Positions 53,733 through 64,000 of a DNA stretch of 64,000 nucleotides are shown one piece after another (the stretch's first letter is position 1; each line of letters opens with the position of its first letter). The notes under the pieces were generated by a model. The model was not told the origin of the DNA. It saw only the letters and a list, made by a program, of their open reading frames with translations, and did no database searches. The position numbers and the translations under genes are program-made. This stretch comes from Phycisphaerae bacterium (GTDB lineage: Bacteria > Planctomycetota > Phycisphaerae > UBA1845 > PWPN01): the NCBI GenBank assembly GCA_018003015.1, contig JAGNEZ010000024.1, forward strand, positions 1 to 64,000, written 5' to 3'.

Positions 53733-54542
53733 TCACGCCGCCGGTGCCGGATACGTCAACGGCTTGCCGTGCTCGACGAGCTGGTAGCGGTCGCCGATAC
53801 CGAGCATCCTCAGGTTGGTGCGAAGCAGCTCGGGGGGCAGCGAGTTGGCTGGAAACAGGTCGTAGTGGCAGGGGATGACGACCTTGGCATTCATTTTGTG
53901 GGCCAGGGTGGCGGCCTCGGCCGGGCTCATGTTGTGGAACGCCGGGTTGATCACTGCTGCGAGGATATCCGGCTTGTGGGCGGCCATGCTGTCGGCCAGG
54001 ATCTCGTGGTAGCCGGTGTCGCCGGTCACGTAGAACTTCGGACCGTCTTTGATGCAGACCAGATAGCCCACGTGGGTGAGATCGTCGCCGGCGAAGGGGA
54101 TCGCGAAGGTTCCCCGCAGAGTGAGGTCGCCGAGCGTGACGCTCTTGTTTGGCCAGATCATGGCTGTCTGACTCTGAGGCACGCCCATGCTCACCAGCTT
54201 CTCGATCGTCTCGGGTGGGGCGACGAACGGTCCGACTCCGCCCGCCGCCCGGTAAGGACGGAGGGTTTCAGGATCGAGGTGATCCTGGTGACTATGCGTC
54301 ATGGCGTAGGCATCGATTCCGACCAGATCGGCGGGCGGGAGGGGCGGGGGCACCAGCCGGTCCATGTCGAACCCGTACTGGTCGCCGATGGCTTTGCACG
54401 AGTTGGACAGGTACGGATCGATGGCCACGATCTTGCCGCCGGGGCTCTTCACGATGAAGCCAGCCTGCCCCAGCCACCACAGGGTGAGCGAACCTCGGGG
54501 TACCCGGTACTGCCGCAGTTGTGTCATGCTCAGGATGGCCAT
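53733..54542 (-). CDS. MBL-fold metal-dependent hydrolase, UlaG (lactonase)-like
   Basis: 269 residues. Beta-lactamase-fold signature: LTLWWLGQAGFIV, IDPYLSNS, THSHQDHLD (His83, His85, Asp87, His88), VTGDTGYH and CHYDLF. The layout fits UlaG-type L-ascorbate-6-phosphate lactonases, which hydrolyse sugar lactone phosphates with Mn2+. A lactonase next to dehydrogenases suits an oxidative sugar pathway. Last gene of the ten-gene cluster; the cupin gene ends 10 bases upstream. GAGGA lies six bases before the ATG. Confidence 0.88.
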   Translation of the reverse strand: MAILSMTQLRQYRVPRGSLTLWWLGQAGFIVKSPGGKIVAIDPYLSNSCKAIGDQYGFDMDRLVPPPLPPADLVGIDAYAMTHSHQDHLDPETLRPYRAAGGVGPFVAPPETIEKLVSMGVPQSQTAMIWPNKSVTLGDLTLRGTFAIPFAGDDLTHVGYLVCIKDGPKFYVTGDTGYHEILADSMAAHKPDILAAVINPAFHNMSPAEAATLAHKMNAKVVIPCHYDLFPANSLPPELLRTNLRMLGIGDRYQLVEHGKPLTYPAPAA

Positions 54543-54552
54543 GTTATGGTCC

Positions 54553-54975
54553 TCATGGATTGGGCGGGGAGGTCACGATCATCACCACGAGCGTCTCGGT
54601 TCCGGTGTTCTCGATGCCGTGGATGCACCAGGGCGGCAGGTAGACGAAGTCGCCCTTCTTGACTTCGCGTTTGTAGTTGGCGAAGGTCATGGTGCCGCGG
54701 CCCTCCATGATCACGTAGGTTTCCTCGGTCTCGTGCTGGCCGGGCTGGAGCACGACATGTGGAGCGAGGTAGAACATTACCAAGCCGAGGTTTTTGGCGG
54801 GCGCATTGGGGTTGACCGGGTGCACCACGCGAACGGCGTTTCCGTAGCAGCCCGGGTAGACGATGGGCACGCCCTGCTGAACGGTCACGATCATGGGATC
54901 GGGTGCCTTGTCCGGTTTGGGAATCAGCGGCGGGCGATCGGATTTGTAGCCCTGGTGGACTTTGATTTCTGCCAT
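54553..54975 (-). CDS. Single-domain cupin protein
   Basis: 140 residues from ATG 54975; ATG 54984 is three codons upstream but has AAGGAA too close. A single cupin barrel with motif 1 PGQHETEETYVIMEGRG (His81, Glu83, Glu85) and motif 2 GDFVYLPPWCIHGIENTG (His119). The second motif-1 His is Glu83, so the metal site is HEH-like. Such small cupins act as sugar isomerases, epimerases, or sensory subunits. It sits between SDR and lactonase-like genes, so a sugar-acid isomerisation step is plausible. Exact role not seen. Confidence 0.88.
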   Translation of the reverse strand: MAEIKVHQGYKSDRPPLIPKPDKAPDPMIVTVQQGVPIVYPGCYGNAVRVVHPVNPNAPAKNLGLVMFYLAPHVVLQPGQHETEETYVIMEGRGTMTFANYKREVKKGDFVYLPPWCIHGIENTGTETLVVMIVTSPPNP

Positions 54976-55120
54976 GGAACTCATTTCCTTTCTTGTGAAT
55001 CAGGTTGTATGCAAGCCGACGATGCTTGCTACACCAAGATTGAGGATGGAGAAAGGTCGGAGGGCAAGCCATTCTCTCAACTCTTCTTCTTCATTCTCAA
55101 TTCCCCGTTCTCCATTTGCC

Positions 55121-55906
55121 TCAGAAGTCTCTTGCGTATCCTCCGGCGGTCCAGCCGCCGTCGATGGTCAGTACGGTCCCGGTAATGTAAGCGCTTTCGG
55201 GGGCGGCCAGGAACAGGGCGCCGTGGGCGATTTCCTTGGCTTCGGCCGGCCGGCCGAGCGGGATGTGGTCGAGAATCCGCTGGATGCGGTCGACGAATTT
55301 CCCGTCAGGGCCATAGAAGAGCCTCTTGGTTCCCTCGCTCACTGTCGAGCCTGGAGCGATCGCATTGACGAGGACGCCCTTGGGGGCGAGTTCGATGGCC
55401 ATGGCCCGGGTCAGACCGACGATCGCGTGCTTGGCCGCGATGTAGGCGCTCTGCAACCGCAAGGCGACAAGGCCGCAAATGGAGGAAATGTGGATGATCC
55501 GCCCGGATTTCTGGGCGACCATGAGCGGCGAAACGGCTCGGCTGACGATGACGACGCCGTTCAGATCGGTCTCGATGATCCAGTCCCATTCATCCTTGGG
55601 GAACTCGTCGAAAGTCACGCGATGCTTGACCGTATTGACGCCCGCGTTGTTGACAAGGATATCGATGTGCCCGAACTCGTCGGTGATCTTCCTGACGACG
55701 TCCTTGACCTGATCTTCGTTGCGAACGTCCATCTCACAGCCCCTGCAGGAAGGGAATTTGGCTGCTTCCTTCCTGACCGCCGGGACGTCGATATCCGTGT
55801 AGATCACCTGGGCGCCGTTGTTGGCGAACGAATCAGCGATCGCCAGACCGATTCCGTTTCCGGAGCCGGTAACCAACGCGACCTTGCCTGACAAATCAAC
55901 CTTCAT
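55121..55906 (-). CDS. SDR-family oxidoreductase (first)
   Basis: 261 residues. Classical short-chain dehydrogenase: NAD-binding LVTGSGNGIGLA (residues 12-22), NNAGV (87-91), catalytic Ser141/142, Tyr155 and Lys159 in SAYIAAKH, and PG after the active site in IAPGSTVS. The Asp at the end of beta-2 (YTDIDV, Asp38) suggests NAD rather than NADP. Likely a sugar or sugar-acid dehydrogenase such as those of gluconate 5-dehydrogenase type. It overlaps no neighbour: 8 bases separate it from the unknown beta-protein upstream and about 145 from the cupin. Confidence 0.93.
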   Translation of the reverse strand: MKVDLSGKVALVTGSGNGIGLAIADSFANNGAQVIYTDIDVPAVRKEAAKFPSCRGCEMDVRNEDQVKDVVRKITDEFGHIDILVNNAGVNTVKHRVTFDEFPKDEWDWIIETDLNGVVIVSRAVSPLMVAQKSGRIIHISSICGLVALRLQSAYIAAKHAIVGLTRAMAIELAPKGVLVNAIAPGSTVSEGTKRLFYGPDGKFVDRIQRILDHIPLGRPAEAKEIAHGALFLAAPESAYITGTVLTIDGGWTAGGYARDF

Positions 55907-55914
55907 GATCTCAC

Positions 55915-56961
55915 CTATGCCTCAGGGGACAACAAGATCCGGGCCACGGCGCGAACCTGTTCCGACGGGCCACGGAACGCCCAGACCGCCGACCAGTCGT
56001 CGCAGCGGGTGCGGCCCGTGCCCTCACCGACGGCCGGGATGTGATATTCCAGTTCGCTGAATGCTCCGAGGCTTTGGTGGACAACGTTGCAGGACTGGAC
56101 CGCATAGCCGAGGTCGTCCTTGTCGGTCCAGGGGACGTCCACATAGTCACCGGAGGGATTGACGAAGAAGTTGCGAATGACCAAGGCGGAGCGGCCACCG
56201 GTCTGGTACAGGTATCCGACCCGGCCGGTGGCAGCGACGGCGCGGATGCCGATCTTGTGACAGTCGTTAGTTCGCATTCGGTAGCGCACCATGCGGTCGC
56301 CCGCGATCAAGTCTTGGGGGGATATGGAGCCGAAGTAGATCTTGGGCTGCGTCCTGACGTGTACGGGGACGAGCAGATCGCCGCCGTGGGGCATCTGAAT
56401 GAGATTCCAGGCCCCTACTCGGGCGACCGGTGGGCCCACGATGGCCAGCGAGGTGTGCTGGGTGTAGCCTGCGTATTCGAGCTCGAGCAGGCTTGCCGCG
56501 GCGCGCTCGCAGCGTAGCGGATTGGGCGCCCAGGACAGCGACTTGCCCATCTCAAGCTCGACGGTTTTTCGGGAGCGGGCCAGTGTGACGGTCAGCCGAT
56601 TCACCAGGTGCACGCCCTCGGCGGATCTGGTGACCTGGTAGTTGCCCGGGTCCAGTTGCCGCGGCTGGAAGTAGCGGTCCAGGCTGGGGTAGTCGGGGAA
56701 GAACAAGTCGAGTTCAGGCGACAGCCACGTCCGGTCGCCGCCGGAGTTGTGCCACTCGTTGCTGGCATAAAAGGCCTTGGCCGAGGCCGGGCTCTTCAGG
56801 GCATCATGGGTCCAGAAGAAGTTCTCGCTGCTGCTGGGCGGGAACAGGCCGAGCACTCGCCCGCCGTGCTGGAGAACGAGCACCTCGGTTCCATCCGGGC
56901 TACGGAGTGGTTCCGTCAGCTTGCCTGCCTCATGCAGGCTCTTGACCAGAGCTTCATTCAT
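55915..56961 (-). CDS. Beta-rich protein of unknown function in the sugar cluster
   Basis: 348 residues from ATG 56961 with AAGGAAC seven bases upstream; the longer frame has no support. No signal peptide. The sequence is strand-rich, with EVLVLQHGGRVLGLFP, YQVTRSAEGVHLVNRLTVTL, ELEYAGYTQHTSLAIVG and a C-terminal FSELEYHIPAVGEG. The opening 'HGGRVLGLF' and 'HNSGGDRTW' resemble the aldose-1-epimerase/beta-supersandwich fold, so a cytoplasmic mutarotase-like or glycan-binding role is possible. I see no clear catalytic His/Glu pair. It lies between the SDR and permease genes with gaps of 8 and 41 bases and is surely part of the operon. Confidence 0.85.
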   Translation of the reverse strand: MNEALVKSLHEAGKLTEPLRSPDGTEVLVLQHGGRVLGLFPPSSSENFFWTHDALKSPASAKAFYASNEWHNSGGDRTWLSPELDLFFPDYPSLDRYFQPRQLDPGNYQVTRSAEGVHLVNRLTVTLARSRKTVELEMGKSLSWAPNPLRCERAAASLLELEYAGYTQHTSLAIVGPPVARVGAWNLIQMPHGGDLLVPVHVRTQPKIYFGSISPQDLIAGDRMVRYRMRTNDCHKIGIRAVAATGRVGYLYQTGGRSALVIRNFFVNPSGDYVDVPWTDKDDLGYAVQSCNVVHQSLGAFSELEYHIPAVGEGTGRTRCDDWSAVWAFRGPSEQVRAVARILLSPEA

Positions 56962-57002
56962 GATCGCGTTCCTTTCGGTCGGGCCTGCCGAGCCCGCGTG
57001 GG

Positions 57003-58277
57003 TCACGACTTGGCCAGTGTATTCCCGTAGGCCATGACGATGGCCGCCACGATCAGCACGCCGATGGCGACGTACATCTGGTACCTGGGCTTGCCCTTGA
57101 CTCCGCGCCATTCGCCGCTGATGAAACCCACTCCCTGGCTGCCGGTCATCTGCATCGCCTGCTGGATTCCGAATCCGATCGACGCCCCCAGGGCTCCGAG
57201 CATGAGCATCCCCTTGCCCTGCAGTCCGACCGCGATGATGGAGGTGACACCCATGATGACGGCCAAGCCGGCGTCCCTCCAGCTCTCGCCGAACACGTGC
57301 CAGGACTTGTTCCGAGTCAGCAGATACAGGGCGTAGGCAACGTTGAGGGCGGAGCCGGCGAACAGGCCCGCCGCCCAGACGCCGAACACGGCCAGGATAG
57401 CGCCGGTGTCCACGCCGACCTCGCATTGACCGCCCGGCAGAGCGCTGGCCAGCCGTTCGCGGATCCGCTCGGCGGCATGTGCGGCCTTCTGCCCGCCGAT
57501 CGCGATCGTGCCGACGCCTTCCACCTCCATCGTTCCCTCGGCACTCACGCTGTAGGTCTTGGAGAACCGGCGGGCAAGCTCGTCCTGGCCTTCGGCGTTG
57601 ACCTTCACCTTGATCTCGGTATTGGGCCGGACGAGGCAGAGATTCGCGATGATCGGTCCCTGACTGTAGACGAACGCAAGAGACAGCCCTGCGGAGAGCA
57701 CCCCGGCGACGGCGGTCATGATCAGGCCACCGAGGAAGCTACCGGACTGAGCGGATCTCTGTTTATTGTCGGCTTGCAGGGAGGTGAGCTGCCGGTCGCG
57801 GCCGAAGCCAGCGAACGTGGCGAACAACACGCCGATGAGCATGACGCCCACGCCGGCCAGCACGGCCATGCCGGCTGGCGAGTTCAGATCGGGCGCATCC
57901 TTGAACAGGCCGGTGCCCTTGAAGACCAGGGGGACGATCGTGCCCACGCACACGCCCAGCCCGGCGAGGATGGCCCCGGTCAAGGCCATGCCGATGCGCA
58001 CGAAGCACAGGCCGCACAACACATTAGCGATGCCCCAGCCGGCCGCGAACAGGTTGGCCTTGATCAGGGTGCGGAGCGGAACGGCGCGCAAACCCTCGAT
58101 CGGGTCGGGGCAGGCGAACAGGGTGATGCTCCAGGGAATGATGATGAGTGCGATGAGCATGGCGATCAGCCACCAGTGCTCGAACTGGTACTTGCGCATG
58201 AGCTTGAATGGCCAGGCCCCGCTCCCGGTGAGCAGCCCGGCGATGCCAACCACACAAGCACCCAATAGCGTTTCCAT
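57003..58277 (-). CDS. RhaT-like sugar:proton symporter with a large inserted domain
   Basis: 424 residues against about 344 for RhaT. About ten transmembrane helices in two DMT-like halves: TGSGAWPFKLMRKYQFEHWW, IALIIIPWSITLFACP, GIANVLCGLCFVRIGMALTG, and the second half WAAGLFAGSALNVAYALYLL. L-rhamnose:H+ symporters of this family import deoxy-hexoses, so the substrate is likely a rhamnose-like sugar. Between two central helices (about residues 217-288, nt 57414-57629) lies a soluble insertion with VSAEGTMEVEGVGTIAIGG followed by a helix, resembling the Poly_export/Wza fold. Its function is unknown. No periplasmic binding protein is in the cluster. Confidence 0.85.
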   Translation of the reverse strand: METLLGACVVGIAGLLTGSGAWPFKLMRKYQFEHWWLIAMLIALIIIPWSITLFACPDPIEGLRAVPLRTLIKANLFAAGWGIANVLCGLCFVRIGMALTGAILAGLGVCVGTIVPLVFKGTGLFKDAPDLNSPAGMAVLAGVGVMLIGVLFATFAGFGRDRQLTSLQADNKQRSAQSGSFLGGLIMTAVAGVLSAGLSLAFVYSQGPIIANLCLVRPNTEIKVKVNAEGQDELARRFSKTYSVSAEGTMEVEGVGTIAIGGQKAAHAAERIRERLASALPGGQCEVGVDTGAILAVFGVWAAGLFAGSALNVAYALYLLTRNKSWHVFGESWRDAGLAVIMGVTSIIAVGLQGKGMLMLGALGASIGFGIQQAMQMTGSQGVGFISGEWRGVKGKPRYQMYVAIGVLIVAAIVMAYGNTLAKS

Positions 58278-58314
58278 GCCAACGTACCCTTTCGCAAGAG
58301 GTTGCTCGATGCGT

Positions 58315-59157
58315 CTACACTCCCGGGACGTAGCCCGTGCCGAACCTGGCCGTCGACCGGGTTCGGAAATCCGAGATCAGCGACATCAGGGCGGTCGTTC
58401 CGCCGTCCGCAATGATGGTCTGGCCGACGATGTAGCCGGCCTCGTCGGAACAGAGGAACACGGCCAAGTGGGCGATATCCAGCGGCCGACCGGCACGGGC
58501 GACCGGCACAGCGTTCTTGGCGGACTCACCGGCATCCTTCTCGTTGAAGCCGGGGATGGCCTTGTAGTAGTTGTCCACCGTGACCCAACCGGGGGCGATG
58601 GCGTTCACCCGGATGCCCTGGTAGGCCAGCTCGACGGAGAGTGTTCGGGTGTAGGCGATGATCGCCCCCTTGGTTCCGGCGTAGACCGAGTGTTCTGGCG
58701 CGCCCTGGAGACCGTGGATGGAGGTGATGTTGCACACTGCCCCGCCGCCGTGCTTGAGCATGTCCTTGGCCACGGTCTGGGTGAGGAAGAACTGGGCCCG
58801 GATGTTCACGTGGTAGAGGACGTCGAATTGCTCGCGGGTGACCTCGAGGAACGGCTTGTTCAGGGTGATGCCCGCGTTGTTGACCAGGCAGTCGATCCCG
58901 CCGAGGAAGCCGATGGCCTGCTCGCCCAGACCGATCGTCTCGTCCACGGAGTTGAAGTTTGCGTTGACCGCGGTCGCCCGGCGTCCGAGGGCTTCGATCT
59001 CCTTCACCGCGCTGCGTGCTCCGGCGTCGCTGTGCGAATAATGAAGGACGACGTCAGCGCCTTGGCGGGCGAACTCCATGGCGATTTCGCGTCCGATGCC
59101 GGTCCCCGAACCGGTTACCAGGGCCCGCTTGCCAGCCAGTCTGTGGTTTGCACTCAT
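58315..59157 (-). CDS. SDR-family oxidoreductase (second)
   Basis: 280 residues with GGAGGT five bases before the ATG. ALVTGSGTGIGREIA (residues 12-26) binds NAD(P); NNAGI; catalytic Ser146, Tyr159 and Lys163 (SVYAGTKGA). Beta-2 ends HYSHSD, lacking the NAD-type Asp and with Ser/His instead, so NADP is possible. The C-terminus has an added basic tail (STARFGTGYVPGV). With the first SDR it gives two dehydrogenation steps, for example sugar to lactone and a later oxidation of a sugar acid. Gap of 37 bases to the permease gene. Confidence 0.92.
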   Translation of the reverse strand: MSANHRLAGKRALVTGSGTGIGREIAMEFARQGADVVLHYSHSDAGARSAVKEIEALGRRATAVNANFNSVDETIGLGEQAIGFLGGIDCLVNNAGITLNKPFLEVTREQFDVLYHVNIRAQFFLTQTVAKDMLKHGGGAVCNITSIHGLQGAPEHSVYAGTKGAIIAYTRTLSVELAYQGIRVNAIAPGWVTVDNYYKAIPGFNEKDAGESAKNAVPVARAGRPLDIAHLAVFLCSDEAGYIVGQTIIADGGTTALMSLISDFRTRSTARFGTGYVPGV

Positions 59158-59289
59158 CGGTCACCTCCATTGACAGGTCGCACAACTCCAACCCTCCCGT
59201 GCAGCGGTCGAAGATACGTTCCAGCATCCGAAGGAGCCACCGGCGAGACGCCGACCCCAAGCGTTCCCGGGAACGCGTTCCAAGCCATG

Positions 59290-59955
59290 TCAGCGGGCCG
59301 CCGCTTCTCCCTCGACGATCTTGACTCCGTAACCGGCCCCGATCCGAGTTGCACCCGCGGCGAGGAGGGCCTGGGCGTTGGCGTAGTCGCGGACCTTTCC
59401 GGAGGCCTTGACGCCGAAGCCCGGCCCCACGGTCTCGCGCAGCAGTCGGATATCCTCCACGGTCGCGAAGCCTTCGGCAAAGCCGGTGCAGGTCTTCACG
59501 AAGTGGGCTCCGGCCTGCTTGACGAGTTGACAGGCCAGTATCTTCTGATCGCGGGTGAGCAGGCCGGTCTCGATGATGACCTTGACCATCGCGCCTCCGG
59601 CCGCGGCCACGACTTCGGCGATATCCCGGACCACGAGGTCCTTGTTGCCCGACTTGAGGGCTCCGAGATTAATCACCATATCGACTTCGCTGGCTCCGTT
59701 GGCGATGGCCTCGCGCGTCTCGAAGGCCTTGGTTTGGGTGGTGGTCGCGCCCAGGGGGAAGCCAATGACCGTGCACACCTTAATCGGCGTGCCCTCGAGC
59801 TCGAGGGCGGCCAGGGCCACGTAGGACGGGTTGACACACACCGCGGTGAACTTGTGCTGCTTAGCCTGCCGGCACAGGGTGACGATCTCGTCGGGGGATG
59901 CGTCCTGCCGCAGCAGGGTGTGATCGATGTACTTGGCGACATCCGGGACAGTCAT
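59290..59955 (-). CDS. deoC: Deoxyribose-phosphate aldolase
   Basis: 221 residues. It cleaves 2-deoxy-D-ribose-5-phosphate into glyceraldehyde-3-phosphate and acetaldehyde through a Schiff base. YIDHTLL (residues 9-15) is the family start, [11 protein letters not shown] carries Asp92 near the active site, FVKTCTGF holds the likely Schiff-base Lys154, and GVKASGKVR the helper Lys183. The usual KTSTGF reads KTCTGF. AAGGAGAAG precedes the ATG. Its position behind a sugar kinase suggests the natural substrate is a phosphorylated deoxy-sugar or its analogue rather than nucleoside-derived deoxyribose, since no nucleoside phosphorylase is near. Confidence 0.95.
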
Positions 59956-59988
59956 GTACTCACTTCTCCTTTCAACCGTGGGCGGCGC

Positions 59989-60960
59989 TCAACATAGGCA
60001 CGGCTTGGTGCAACGAAGAAAATCGTCCAGTTCCTGTCGGGTCGGCAGCGAAGGCTGAGATCCCGCCCGAGTGGCGGCCAGGGCTCCGGCACCGTTCGCG
60101 AAAGCGATCGCTTGTTCGTCGCCCCGTCCTTCGGCCAATGCGAGGGCCAGGGCGCCGCTAAAGGCGTCCCCCGCGGCGGTCGTGTCCACGGCTTTCACGG
60201 GGTAGCTCGGGATCAGTTGCCGCGTGTTCCTGGTCGCCAGGTAGGCGCCGCGCTGCCCCAGGGTAATGATGACCTTGCGCGGACCCATGTCCAGCAGCTT
60301 GGCTGAGGCCCGGGCTTCCCAGTCGTTTTTCGGCTCCGGGGCCAAGCCGCCCAGGGGGAGGGCCACTCCAGTGAAGAACTCCGCTTCGGTCTCGTTGGGG
60401 GTGAGGTAGGTTGCCTTGGCGAACAACCCTGCGGGAAACGCGCCCGCGGGCGCGGGATTCAATATCACCCGCACGCCCAGCTCATCGGCCAGATCGACGG
60501 CTCGCGCCACGGCGGGCATCGCGATCTCCAACTGGCACACCACCGCGTCGGCGGAGGCAATCACCTCGCGGGCGGCATCCACGTCCTCCGGGGCGCAGGC
60601 CAGGTTCGCCTGCGGCACGATGATGATGGTGTTTTCGCCGGCGGCATCGACGTGAATGCAGCAAGCCCCGGTGCCGGCGGCCGGATCGGCCTTGACGAAC
60701 TCGGTGTTGACGCCGCTGGCGTCGAGGCTGGCCAGCAGGAATCCGGCCCGGTCGTCCTGGCCGACGCGGCCGACCATGAAGACCTCGGCCCCCAATCGGG
60801 CGGCGGCCACCGCCTGATTAGCGCCCTTGCCTCCGGAGAAGGTGCCGAAGCTCTGCCCCAAAACAGTCTCGCCCTTGCGGGGAATGCGGTCGGCGAGGGC
60901 CACGCAGTCAAAGACCAGGCTGCCCACGACGACCACACGTGGTCTCTTCCTGTTCGCCAT
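59989..60960 (-). CDS. rbsK: PfkB-family sugar kinase (ribokinase-like)
   Basis: 323 residues from ATG 60960 with GAGGG six bases upstream. PfkB motif 1 FSGGKGANQAVAAARLG (residues 42-58) and the second signature VDTTAAGDAFSGA (258-270), with catalytic base Asp265 intact, although GAGD reads AAGD. NPAPAGAFPAGLF and LTPNETEAEFF complete the ribokinase pattern. It phosphorylates ribose or deoxyribose at C5 with ATP. Because DeoC follows after 33 bases, a deoxyribokinase-like (deoK) role is at least as likely as ribokinase, so the symbol is by family only. Confidence 0.9.
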   Translation of the reverse strand: MANRKRPRVVVVGSLVFDCVALADRIPRKGETVLGQSFGTFSGGKGANQAVAAARLGAEVFMVGRVGQDDRAGFLLASLDASGVNTEFVKADPAAGTGACCIHVDAAGENTIIIVPQANLACAPEDVDAAREVIASADAVVCQLEIAMPAVARAVDLADELGVRVILNPAPAGAFPAGLFAKATYLTPNETEAEFFTGVALPLGGLAPEPKNDWEARASAKLLDMGPRKVIITLGQRGAYLATRNTRQLIPSYPVKAVDTTAAGDAFSGALALALAEGRGDEQAIAFANGAGALAATRAGSQPSLPTRQELDDFLRCTKPCLC

Positions 60961-61008
60961 CGATACCCTCGCATCTCCCGTTGTCACCGAGAACCGCTCT
61001 CTCCGATA

Positions 61009-63504
61009 CTACTTGGTGATCAGGTGGTAGGTAAAGATCGCGGAGCCGGGCTTATCGTTCAGTGAAACCGGCAGGCCGCTCTTCATCAGTTCCTCACCGT
61101 TCAACCGGAGGGTTTCACTTGAATCGAAGTTGGCGATTTCGTAGGACGCCGCCGGATCCAGGCCGCGGAGTGGCAGCCGCACCGCCTGATAAAGGCTCTC
61201 CCCGCGGCGGAAGACCTGAACCACGCCCTTGCCTAGCGCCGGCCGGTCGTACTGCCAAGCCATCCAGACGTCGGCGGCCAGCGAGTACGGCAGGAGCGGA
61301 TAGAAGTCGCCATAGAAGCAGTCGTTGATCTGACGCCACTCGTCCATCGTGGTCTTGAGCAGTTGCCAATCGAGGTTCTTGAGCCCAGTGGCGTCGGGCC
61401 CGAAGGTATACTCGGCGACCATCTGGCTGCGGATCCAGTACTGGCCGTTCTGCATGTTGTAGAGGTAGCCGGACGTGCCGTGGTACGGCAGCCACAAGGA
61501 CAGCCCGCAGGTATGGCACTGCTGGCCGTCGGGAGCGGCGTACCAATCACTGCGCAGCAGGGGCACGGCTCGCCGCAGCGTTTCCAGGTCGTTGCGCCGC
61601 CCGCCGGAGGCACACGAATCGATGAACATGCCCGGGTGGCGTCGAAGGAGCTGATCCCAATAGTCGAAGTAGCCTTCCACGTGGCGAATTTCGGTGATGC
61701 CCCGGCGATCTTCGCTGTCCGCGGCTCGCCAGTACGGCAAGGGGTCGATGTTGAAATCCTGGCGGTAGATGTCGATGCCCTGCTCGGTGAGGAGGTGATC
61801 GATGTGATCGACCAGCCACTTGCGGCAATCCGGATCACCGAGTTTGAGTAAACCGCCGTTGCGTCCGCCGTGAATCCACTCGGGATGCTGGTCGGCCAAC
61901 CACGTGCCGGGATGAACGCGTTCGGGCTCGAACCAGAGGATCGACTTGGCTCCCAGGGAGTGGACGTAGTCGCTGATCTCGCGTAGGCCCTTGGGGAATC
62001 GGCCCTTATCGACTTCCCAGGTACCGGTTTTGGGCCAGCCCACGCCTTCACATGGATACCAGCCGGCGTCCTGCCACCAGGCGTCGAATCGGATACCGTG
62101 TTGGATGTGCTCGCGAAGGAAGGACAACTCCTGCTTCGCCTCGGTCATCAGGCCGGGATAGAAGTTACCTGTACAGATCGAGGCCATGGGCGGGACGAGC
62201 TTGCCGCCCGGCCGGGGCATGTTGTGATCAATCAGCCACTGCCGCCAGATGTTCTGCCCGCGCAGCCAGTCGCCGTCGTAGAACTGCGCGACCACCAGAG
62301 GGCTTCGGACTTCCTCGCCGGGATGGAGCTTGAAGTGGGTGAGCTCCTGGCCGCCACGGACGTTCACATCCGGAGGTTGTGGGCCACTGAACAGCATGTT
62401 CCACTGACCCGCCCAGCTGAGCACGATGATCGCGCCCTTGCCCGGCCAGCCGAGGTTGAAGTACGGCATGACGGACTGGGTCGGTCGCCCGCCGGTGTTG
62501 GCGATCCGCTTTTCCTCGCCCGGAGCCAGCGGTTCGGCACGTGGCGCGTAGCTGTCCACGGTATTCAGATCCCCAGTGTTGTAGCGCAGCGTGCAACCGC
62601 CGTCGACCGGGCCGCTGAACGAAGTATCGATGGCATTGATCGCTTCTATGATCGGCGTGTCGGCGGTCGCGGTGTTCTTGAAGTACAGCGTCCACTCGGT
62701 CGTCGGATAGTCCGTGTACTCGATTGCCACGCAGCGCACGCATAGTCCAGTCGCGGGATCCGTCCAGGTGGTGACGTACTCGATGCGGGTGTCGTCCAGC
62801 TTGCGGGATTGGCGTTCAATTCTCCAGGTCTTCGCCGCCTCAGCGAACGACCGGCCGCCGTAGGTGAACGAAAACGGAGGTTCAACGCCCGACTCCACGC
62901 CGCCAGCAGAGAACAAGGGCAGATCTCCGATGTGGATCTCCTTGCCGTCGACCAGGGTGACCACGGCGTCAGCCCAGTCGGCCTGATCGCTGTTGATGTT
63001 GTCGCCCGCGTCGCCCACCACGATGGTGATTTCCGAAGCCTCGCTCAGATCCGCCTTCAGGGCCCGAGGAGCCTGGCCGCGAGCGCATACTTCGGATTTG
63101 CAGACCTCCTTGCCCCCGGCGAGCACCGAGAAAACCACGGTGCCGCCGGACCAGGTGCCGTTGGTATCGATACCGACCTGAGCAGCGAAGGACTTGGCAG
63201 GGCCAGGCAGGACAACTCGAATACGGCTATTGGCGTGACAATACAGGCCGTGCGTGAACTGCACCTCGCCGATGCGCAGGGGCTTGTCGCCGCGAGCATT
63301 TCGGTGCACGGGGCCGTAGTTGCGCTCAACGAAGAGACCTGGACCAGCCGGCGGGGTCGGCGCGGTGCCCATGAACTTCGCCTCTACCCAGGCATGGGTA
63401 CGAGCCATCTCCTTTTGGGCGGGGCGGAGCCCCATGGCCGGTGCGATCACCATCATCACCGCCAGCGCGGCGAGATACAATGAACGGATCAGAGACAGGG
63501 TCAT
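61009..63504 (-). CDS. Exported alpha-galactosidase-like GH36 enzyme with NPCBM domain
   Basis: 831 residues from ATG 63504 (GAGGA seven bases upstream). Signal peptide about 1-25. Residues about 70-200 form an NPCBM domain (FTHGLYCHANSRIRVVLPG, IDTNGTWSGGTVVF) seen on many secreted glycosidases. A beta-supersandwich (about 205-430) precedes the GH36 barrel: FDAWWQDAGWYP, KSILWFEPERV, GIDIYRQDFN with nucleophile Asp583, and LRSDWYA with acid/base Asp653. GH36 members cleave terminal alpha-galactosides from raffinose, melibiose or galactomannan. The next gene in the operon is a paralogous C-terminus (63515-64000). Confidence 0.94.
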   Translation of the reverse strand: MTLSLIRSLYLAALAVMMVIAPAMGLRPAQKEMARTHAWVEAKFMGTAPTPPAGPGLFVERNYGPVHRNARGDKPLRIGEVQFTHGLYCHANSRIRVVLPGPAKSFAAQVGIDTNGTWSGGTVVFSVLAGGKEVCKSEVCARGQAPRALKADLSEASEITIVVGDAGDNINSDQADWADAVVTLVDGKEIHIGDLPLFSAGGVESGVEPPFSFTYGGRSFAEAAKTWRIERQSRKLDDTRIEYVTTWTDPATGLCVRCVAIEYTDYPTTEWTLYFKNTATADTPIIEAINAIDTSFSGPVDGGCTLRYNTGDLNTVDSYAPRAEPLAPGEEKRIANTGGRPTQSVMPYFNLGWPGKGAIIVLSWAGQWNMLFSGPQPPDVNVRGGQELTHFKLHPGEEVRSPLVVAQFYDGDWLRGQNIWRQWLIDHNMPRPGGKLVPPMASICTGNFYPGLMTEAKQELSFLREHIQHGIRFDAWWQDAGWYPCEGVGWPKTGTWEVDKGRFPKGLREISDYVHSLGAKSILWFEPERVHPGTWLADQHPEWIHGGRNGGLLKLGDPDCRKWLVDHIDHLLTEQGIDIYRQDFNIDPLPYWRAADSEDRRGITEIRHVEGYFDYWDQLLRRHPGMFIDSCASGGRRNDLETLRRAVPLLRSDWYAAPDGQQCHTCGLSLWLPYHGTSGYLYNMQNGQYWIRSQMVAEYTFGPDATGLKNLDWQLLKTTMDEWRQINDCFYGDFYPLLPYSLAADVWMAWQYDRPALGKGVVQVFRRGESLYQAVRLPLRGLDPAASYEIANFDSSETLRLNGEELMKSGLPVSLNDKPGSAIFTYHLITK

Positions 63505-63514
63505 CAACAAGTCC

Positions 63515-64000
63515 TCATTGTGCGACCTTGTAGACCAGAACGACGGCGCCGGGCCGTTCAGCGATGTCGACGGGCAGCCCGGCCTCCATCAGGTCGCGTC
63601 CTTTGAACACCGACGACTTGTCCGTGTCCAGATTCGTGAGCGCGTAGTCTTTCGCAGGGTCGAGCCCACCGAGCTTGAAGTCGGCGCCGCGGAACATGGA
63701 TTCCTTCCGCCGGAAGACCTGGATCATGCCCTCGCCCTTCTCCGGCATATCGAACTGCCAGGCCATCCAGCTTCCGCTGTGGCGGTTACACGAAGTCAGT
63801 GGGTAGAAATCGCCGTAGTAGTAGGCACTGATCGTGCGCCACTGGTCCAATAGCTTGCGGAGAGCGGCGTAGTCGATCTCCTTCACCCGCAGGTCGATAC
63901 CGCATCCGAGGCCGGGGACGACATTGCTCCAGAAGGTGTACGGCTCGACCGGCGTGAATCCGCCGCCGTAGTAGCCGACGTTCTCGCAGGCCACGGTGCC
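63515..64000 (-). CDS. Second GH36-type alpha-galactosidase, C-terminal part (runs off the window)
   Basis: 162 codons are visible; the frame stays open at base 64000, so the N-terminus and start are outside. It aligns with the C-terminal region of the GH36 protein that follows it: YYGDFYPL is shared with GDFYPL, MAWQFDMPEKGEGMIQVFRR matches MAWQYDRPALGKGVVQVFRR, then LDPAKDYALTNLDTD. The two are tandem paralogues, 10 bases apart, and probably differ in linkage or substrate preference. Catalytic residues cannot be seen. Confidence 0.88.
   Translation of the reverse strand, partial: GTVACENVGYYGGGFTPVEPYTFWSNVVPGLGCGIDLRVKEIDYAALRKLLDQWRTISAYYYGDFYPLTSCNRHSGSWMAWQFDMPEKGEGMIQVFRRKESMFRGADFKLGGLDPAKDYALTNLDTDKSSVFKGRDLMEAGLPVDIAERPGAVVLVYKVAQ

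Follow-up and report, generated by a model that had tools for sequence, protein, structure and literature searches.

Why does a RhaT-like transporter gene encode about 80 residues more than its family profile accounts for, and what does the additional stretch form? The question arises from a window of 64,000 nucleotides (contig JAGNEZ010000024.1 of a Phycisphaerae bacterium), in which the minus-strand open reading frame at 57003..58277 encodes a protein of 424 aa. A first-pass annotation made from the sequence had read it as a RhaT-type permease with an inserted Poly_export (Wza N-terminal) domain.

The transporter core

The Pfam scan placed PF06379 (RhaT) on residues 22-202 with an E value of 1.9e-18 (67.2 bits against a gathering value of 27), and the match stops after residue 202. 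Besides RhaT and Poly_export, the scan returned just one insignificant match (DUF2371) and no SLBB domain. Compared with the RhaT profile (344 positions) and with the relative in locus L009, which lacks the insert (344 aa), the protein is longer by about 80 residues, so that the reported excess in length is true. The ten helices of the AlphaFold2 (AF2) model and the alignment to insert-free RhaT divide it into an N-terminal half (TM1-TM6, residues 1-213, 57639..58277), the insert in the TM6-TM7 loop (residues 214-292, 57402..57638) and a C-terminal half (TM7-TM10, residues 293-424, 57006..57401), all on the minus strand. The soluble insert had earlier been placed at 57414-57629 (residues 217-288), which is correct within a few residues.

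E. coli RhaT, the L-rhamnose/H+ symporter (PF06379, PRK13499), aligns throughout with 25% identity. It shares with the window protein the core of ten helices, conserved residues and the charges of the loops, but lacks the domain that adds about 75-80 residues to loop 6-7. The protein is therefore a RhaT/DMT member by both profile and fold. Its match to NCBIfam PRK13499 (E 6e-43, 147.5 bits) lies far below the equivalog cut-off of 369 bits, because of which rhamnose is not assignable as its substrate; the substrate is presumably a sugar, and the transport core appears to be intact.

Identity of the insert

PF02563 (Poly_export) covers residues 218-282 with 28.4 bits when the full protein is searched, the cut-off being 28, and the excised stretch searched alone gives 32.3 bits (E 1.2e-7, same curated cut-off). 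The thin excess over the cut-off in the full protein may be taken to mean that a plain long loop, or an error of assembly or reading frame, resembles Poly_export by chance. Yet the same insert is present in nine further loci at 50-96% protein identity, which argues against both chance and assembly error, and with ten loci from several assemblies, E values as low as 5e-13 and a fold match of high confidence this explanation is already refuted and can be set aside. Individually, 9 of the 10 inserts match Poly_export (best E 5.1e-13; 45.3 bits for the insert of L002), the exception being that of L005, in which the helix looks weakened or degenerate. This last insert (L005:6607-6846), having no Pfam match, is possibly decaying. 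A heavy-metal-associated domain was also considered in view of weak profile matches of the C-terminal half of the insert to ZntA (2ldi, 0.005) and a copper ATPase (1p6t), and was rejected as there is no conserved CxxC and no fold support.

The AF2 model of the full protein, built from 15 sequences, has a pLDDT of 81 and a pTM of 0.76, with transmembrane helices around the insert. Within the insert, where pLDDT is mostly 75-93, the model has strands at 220-227, 240-244, 249-252 and 256-259, a helix at 265-279 and a last strand at 286-290, i.e. a beta-beta-beta-beta-alpha-beta order, and modelling of the insert by itself gave the same fold and the same elements. For the full model Foldseek listed both DMT transporters (5oge, 7paf) and OPX proteins (WzaB, 9n9a, and Wza), none at E 0.001; the ten-helix DMT fold is nevertheless recovered, 5oge and 7paf having a probability of 1.00 although their E values are 2e-3 to 1e-2. 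For the insert alone, the PDB search gave 10 matches at E<=0.001, every one of them an OPX protein, and these are its sole significant matches. VIA-align Z scores of the same model are 11.2 for M. xanthus WzaB and 8.8 for E. coli Wza, compared with 3.9 for the first unrelated chain, and WzaB is also found by the insert sequence profile (E 1.8e-4). The predicted fold is thus that of a PES domain (Wza D1). Profile and fold both assign the insert to Poly_export; it is not a loop continuing the transmembrane fold, and the domain assignment of the first-pass annotation is supported by the profile, the predicted structure and ten homologues.

As to the side of the membrane, which the first-pass annotation had left to be checked, in almost every member loops 1-2 and 5-6 have 2-5 K/R and few acidic residues, a pattern also seen in E. 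coli RhaT. By the positive-inside rule these loops would be cytoplasmic, so that the N-terminus would be external and the insert, as part of loop 6-7, periplasmic. This placement, which is based on loop charges, agrees with the periplasmic location of PES domains in OPX proteins; our search of the literature for experimental RhaT topology gave nothing usable.

Comparison with OPX proteins

The insert has the PES fold and motif in common with the class 3 OPX protein WzaB of M. xanthus (PDB 9n9a) and with Wza D1 (2j58, 7xfd). Unlike these proteins, the window protein has neither SLBB nor Wza_C, and its PES domain is embedded in an inner-membrane transporter instead of being the N-terminal part of a periplasmic protein. 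PMC9603273 defines an OPX protein by Poly_export with one or more SLBB domains after it. The window protein is not an OPX protein since it lacks both SLBB and the export context, its neighbours being genes of sugar catabolism and not a polysaccharide export cluster.

It may be noted that two large surveys of 2022, as far as their available text goes, both use Poly_export matches to find OPX proteins and report the domain in periplasmic or outer-membrane export proteins, in one of them always with SLBB. The RhaT/Poly_export architecture is not described in the available text of either. We also found no described case of such a fusion in the open-access literature, in line with the claim of the first-pass annotation that none was known. 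The window protein is a new combination of two known kinds of domain.

Distribution and evolution

A scan of genome contigs gave a homologue set of 15 loci (L001-L015). The insert is carried by nine of these (L001-L008 and L013). They come without exception from planctomycete MAGs and represent eight assemblies besides that of the window, two of the loci being in one assembly. The latter is the Pirellulales MAG Zod_Metabat.975, which has two insert-bearing RhaT genes (L008:6001-7227 and L013:2537-3757). The set also contains relatives without the insert: L009, L011, L012 and L014 have a short loop at the exact position of the insert, the first three being 58-66% identical to the window protein (L009 66%) and L014 50%. 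The short loop 'EAMKAHGAGEIPA' of L009 and its relatives is, in the alignment, exactly replaced by the PES domain, so that the insertion in the window protein, set against its close orthologues, is a discrete and probably dispensable one. At this position the loop of L010 is about 33 residues long and does not align as a PES domain. The remaining locus, L015, is an Omnitrophota OPX-type protein matched partly through the insert; its gene (L015:2276-3658) has two apparent Poly_export domains.

The insert-bearing gene is rare: profile P0001 found this form in 2 of 392 Planctomycetota genomes. With the A3 profile, 3 of the 114 genomes of the order had it, and one insert-free relative was matched as well. 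In the class it was present in 3 of 397 genomes, and in the class of G290 in 1 of 29. Matches of the insert profile outside RhaT in the 392 planctomycete genomes look like OPX-type proteins and not like further inserts, and the four other PES proteins of the source genome are likewise ordinary OPX-like proteins. No relatives were found in viral contigs, and of the plasmid records 19 had RhaT matches, all below 60% identity and none covering 80% of the query.

In a tree of PES domains the ten inserts form one clade apart from six OPX domains (support 99/98), as would be expected if the domain was acquired once and from one source. In the core tree of the transporters the insert needs two changes because the insert-free L009 falls among the bearers, though a single clade of bearers is not rejected (AU p 0.187). 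Between the window gene and L001 we counted 6.5 synonymous and 9.5 nonsynonymous differences in the insert (dN/dS 0.47) as against 35 and 6 in the core (dN/dS 0.054); more distant pairs go in the same direction, with dS saturated. Constraint on the insert is thus weaker. Among lineages the inserts are 29-37% identical, and their few invariant positions (V, G, A), none of them polar or aromatic, look like fold positions, so that a fixed contact surface is not evident.

From these observations, our main reading is that of an inner-membrane RhaT-family sugar symporter whose periplasmic TM6-TM7 loop was replaced by one complete PES domain from an OPX-type protein, to which we give a probability of roughly 0.6.

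Gene neighbourhood

The gene lies within a minus-strand sugar-catabolism block spanning 53733-63994 of the window, whose last gene, GH36-like, is cut by the window end. Pfam and synteny identify, as conserved neighbours, an SDR dehydrogenase upstream (58315..59157) and, downstream, a DUF6786 protein (55915..56961, Pfam E 1e-7), a second SDR dehydrogenase (55121..55906) and a cupin (54553..54984), next to which lies a metallo-beta-lactamase-fold hydrolase (53733..54542). On the other side are a DeoC-like aldolase and a PfkB sugar kinase (59290..60987) and an NPCBM and GH36-like (melibiase) glycosidase (61009..63510), all assigned by Pfam, the last with a related gene upstream in L002, L004, L006 and L007. 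The order SDR-RhaT-DUF6786-SDR recurs with the insert in L002, L003, L005 and L013, without it in L009, and partly in L010 and L012. Sugar kinases and glycosidases are also found around other loci, and genes for URO-D-like (uroporphyrinogen-decarboxylase-like) proteins recur beside RhaT-type sugar loci (L006:11932-13083, L008:3024-4316, L012:4532-5509). As the insert-free L009 and L012 share the operon type of the window, the PES domain is probably not needed for basic uptake.

Possible role of the domain

D1, the PES domain of Wza, makes contact with Wzc in the inner membrane, and co-localisation is lost when D1 is deleted (PMC12881504). By analogy, the RhaT core of the window protein would suffice for sugar import. 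The PES domain, lying at the periplasmic mouth, would serve as an accessory module for contacts and hold the transporter next to other copies of itself in an oligomer or beside a periplasmic or outer-membrane partner, as D1 does for Wzc. We put this forward tentatively, at somewhat less than even odds. Against it, the gene has no neighbour that encodes a partner protein, the insert is poorly conserved, and that of L005 is degenerate.

The fast evolution of the insert makes a serious rival of a second explanation, namely that the domain is carried along almost neutrally in a periplasmic loop that tolerates it, as a passenger with no specific task, its fold being kept since misfolding would harm the transporter. 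Its patchy presence, the lack of any invariant polar residue, the degenerate insert of L005 and the occurrence of the insert-free L009 in the same operon all point this way. But an intact fold has been kept across several planctomycete lineages in spite of the low identity of the inserts, which is long for a useless domain, and we consider this explanation somewhat less likely than the contact module.

The first-pass annotation had itself suggested a substrate-capturing or gating module, for which we found no positive evidence. In the capture version, the periplasmic PES domain would bind an oligosaccharide and hand the sugar to the transporter. The sugar-catabolism neighbours and a parent family that handles polysaccharide speak for it, as does the GH36-like gene found near 6 of 10 insert-bearing genes (the window counted) and seen near 0 of 5 insert-free ones, a count that is confounded by uneven flank lengths. 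Against it, the insert has no conserved aromatic platform or polar site, and polymer contact in OPX proteins is, according to PMC9603273, predicted for the SLBB domains, which are absent here. This prediction and the D1-Wzc contact lead us to prefer docking or oligomerisation over glycan capture, which we hold to be unlikely.

The other earlier suggestion, a link between import and an outer-membrane channel, is unsupported. The neighbourhoods scanned contained no recognisable gene for an OPX protein, Wzc or a porin. The PES domain would here couple the importer to a channel, either OPX or porin, and sugar would enter through a trans-envelope conduit; PES domains do form rings and, in Wza-Wzc, make contact with proteins of the inner membrane (PMC12881504), and the source genome does have its four other PES proteins, but monosaccharide uptake needs no such conduit, and we regard this as very improbable. 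Its extended form, in which PES importers and OPX-like rings or porins would associate through PES-PES contacts into an envelope-spanning conduit, reversing the architecture of capsule export, is less likely again.

The window protein has a lone copy of a PES domain inside an inner-membrane sugar importer, which shows this domain to be a portable module. It is also a warning that a Poly_export match alone does not make an OPX protein. Taken together, L009 and the window protein are a natural pair, without and with the insert, for what a PES domain does by itself.
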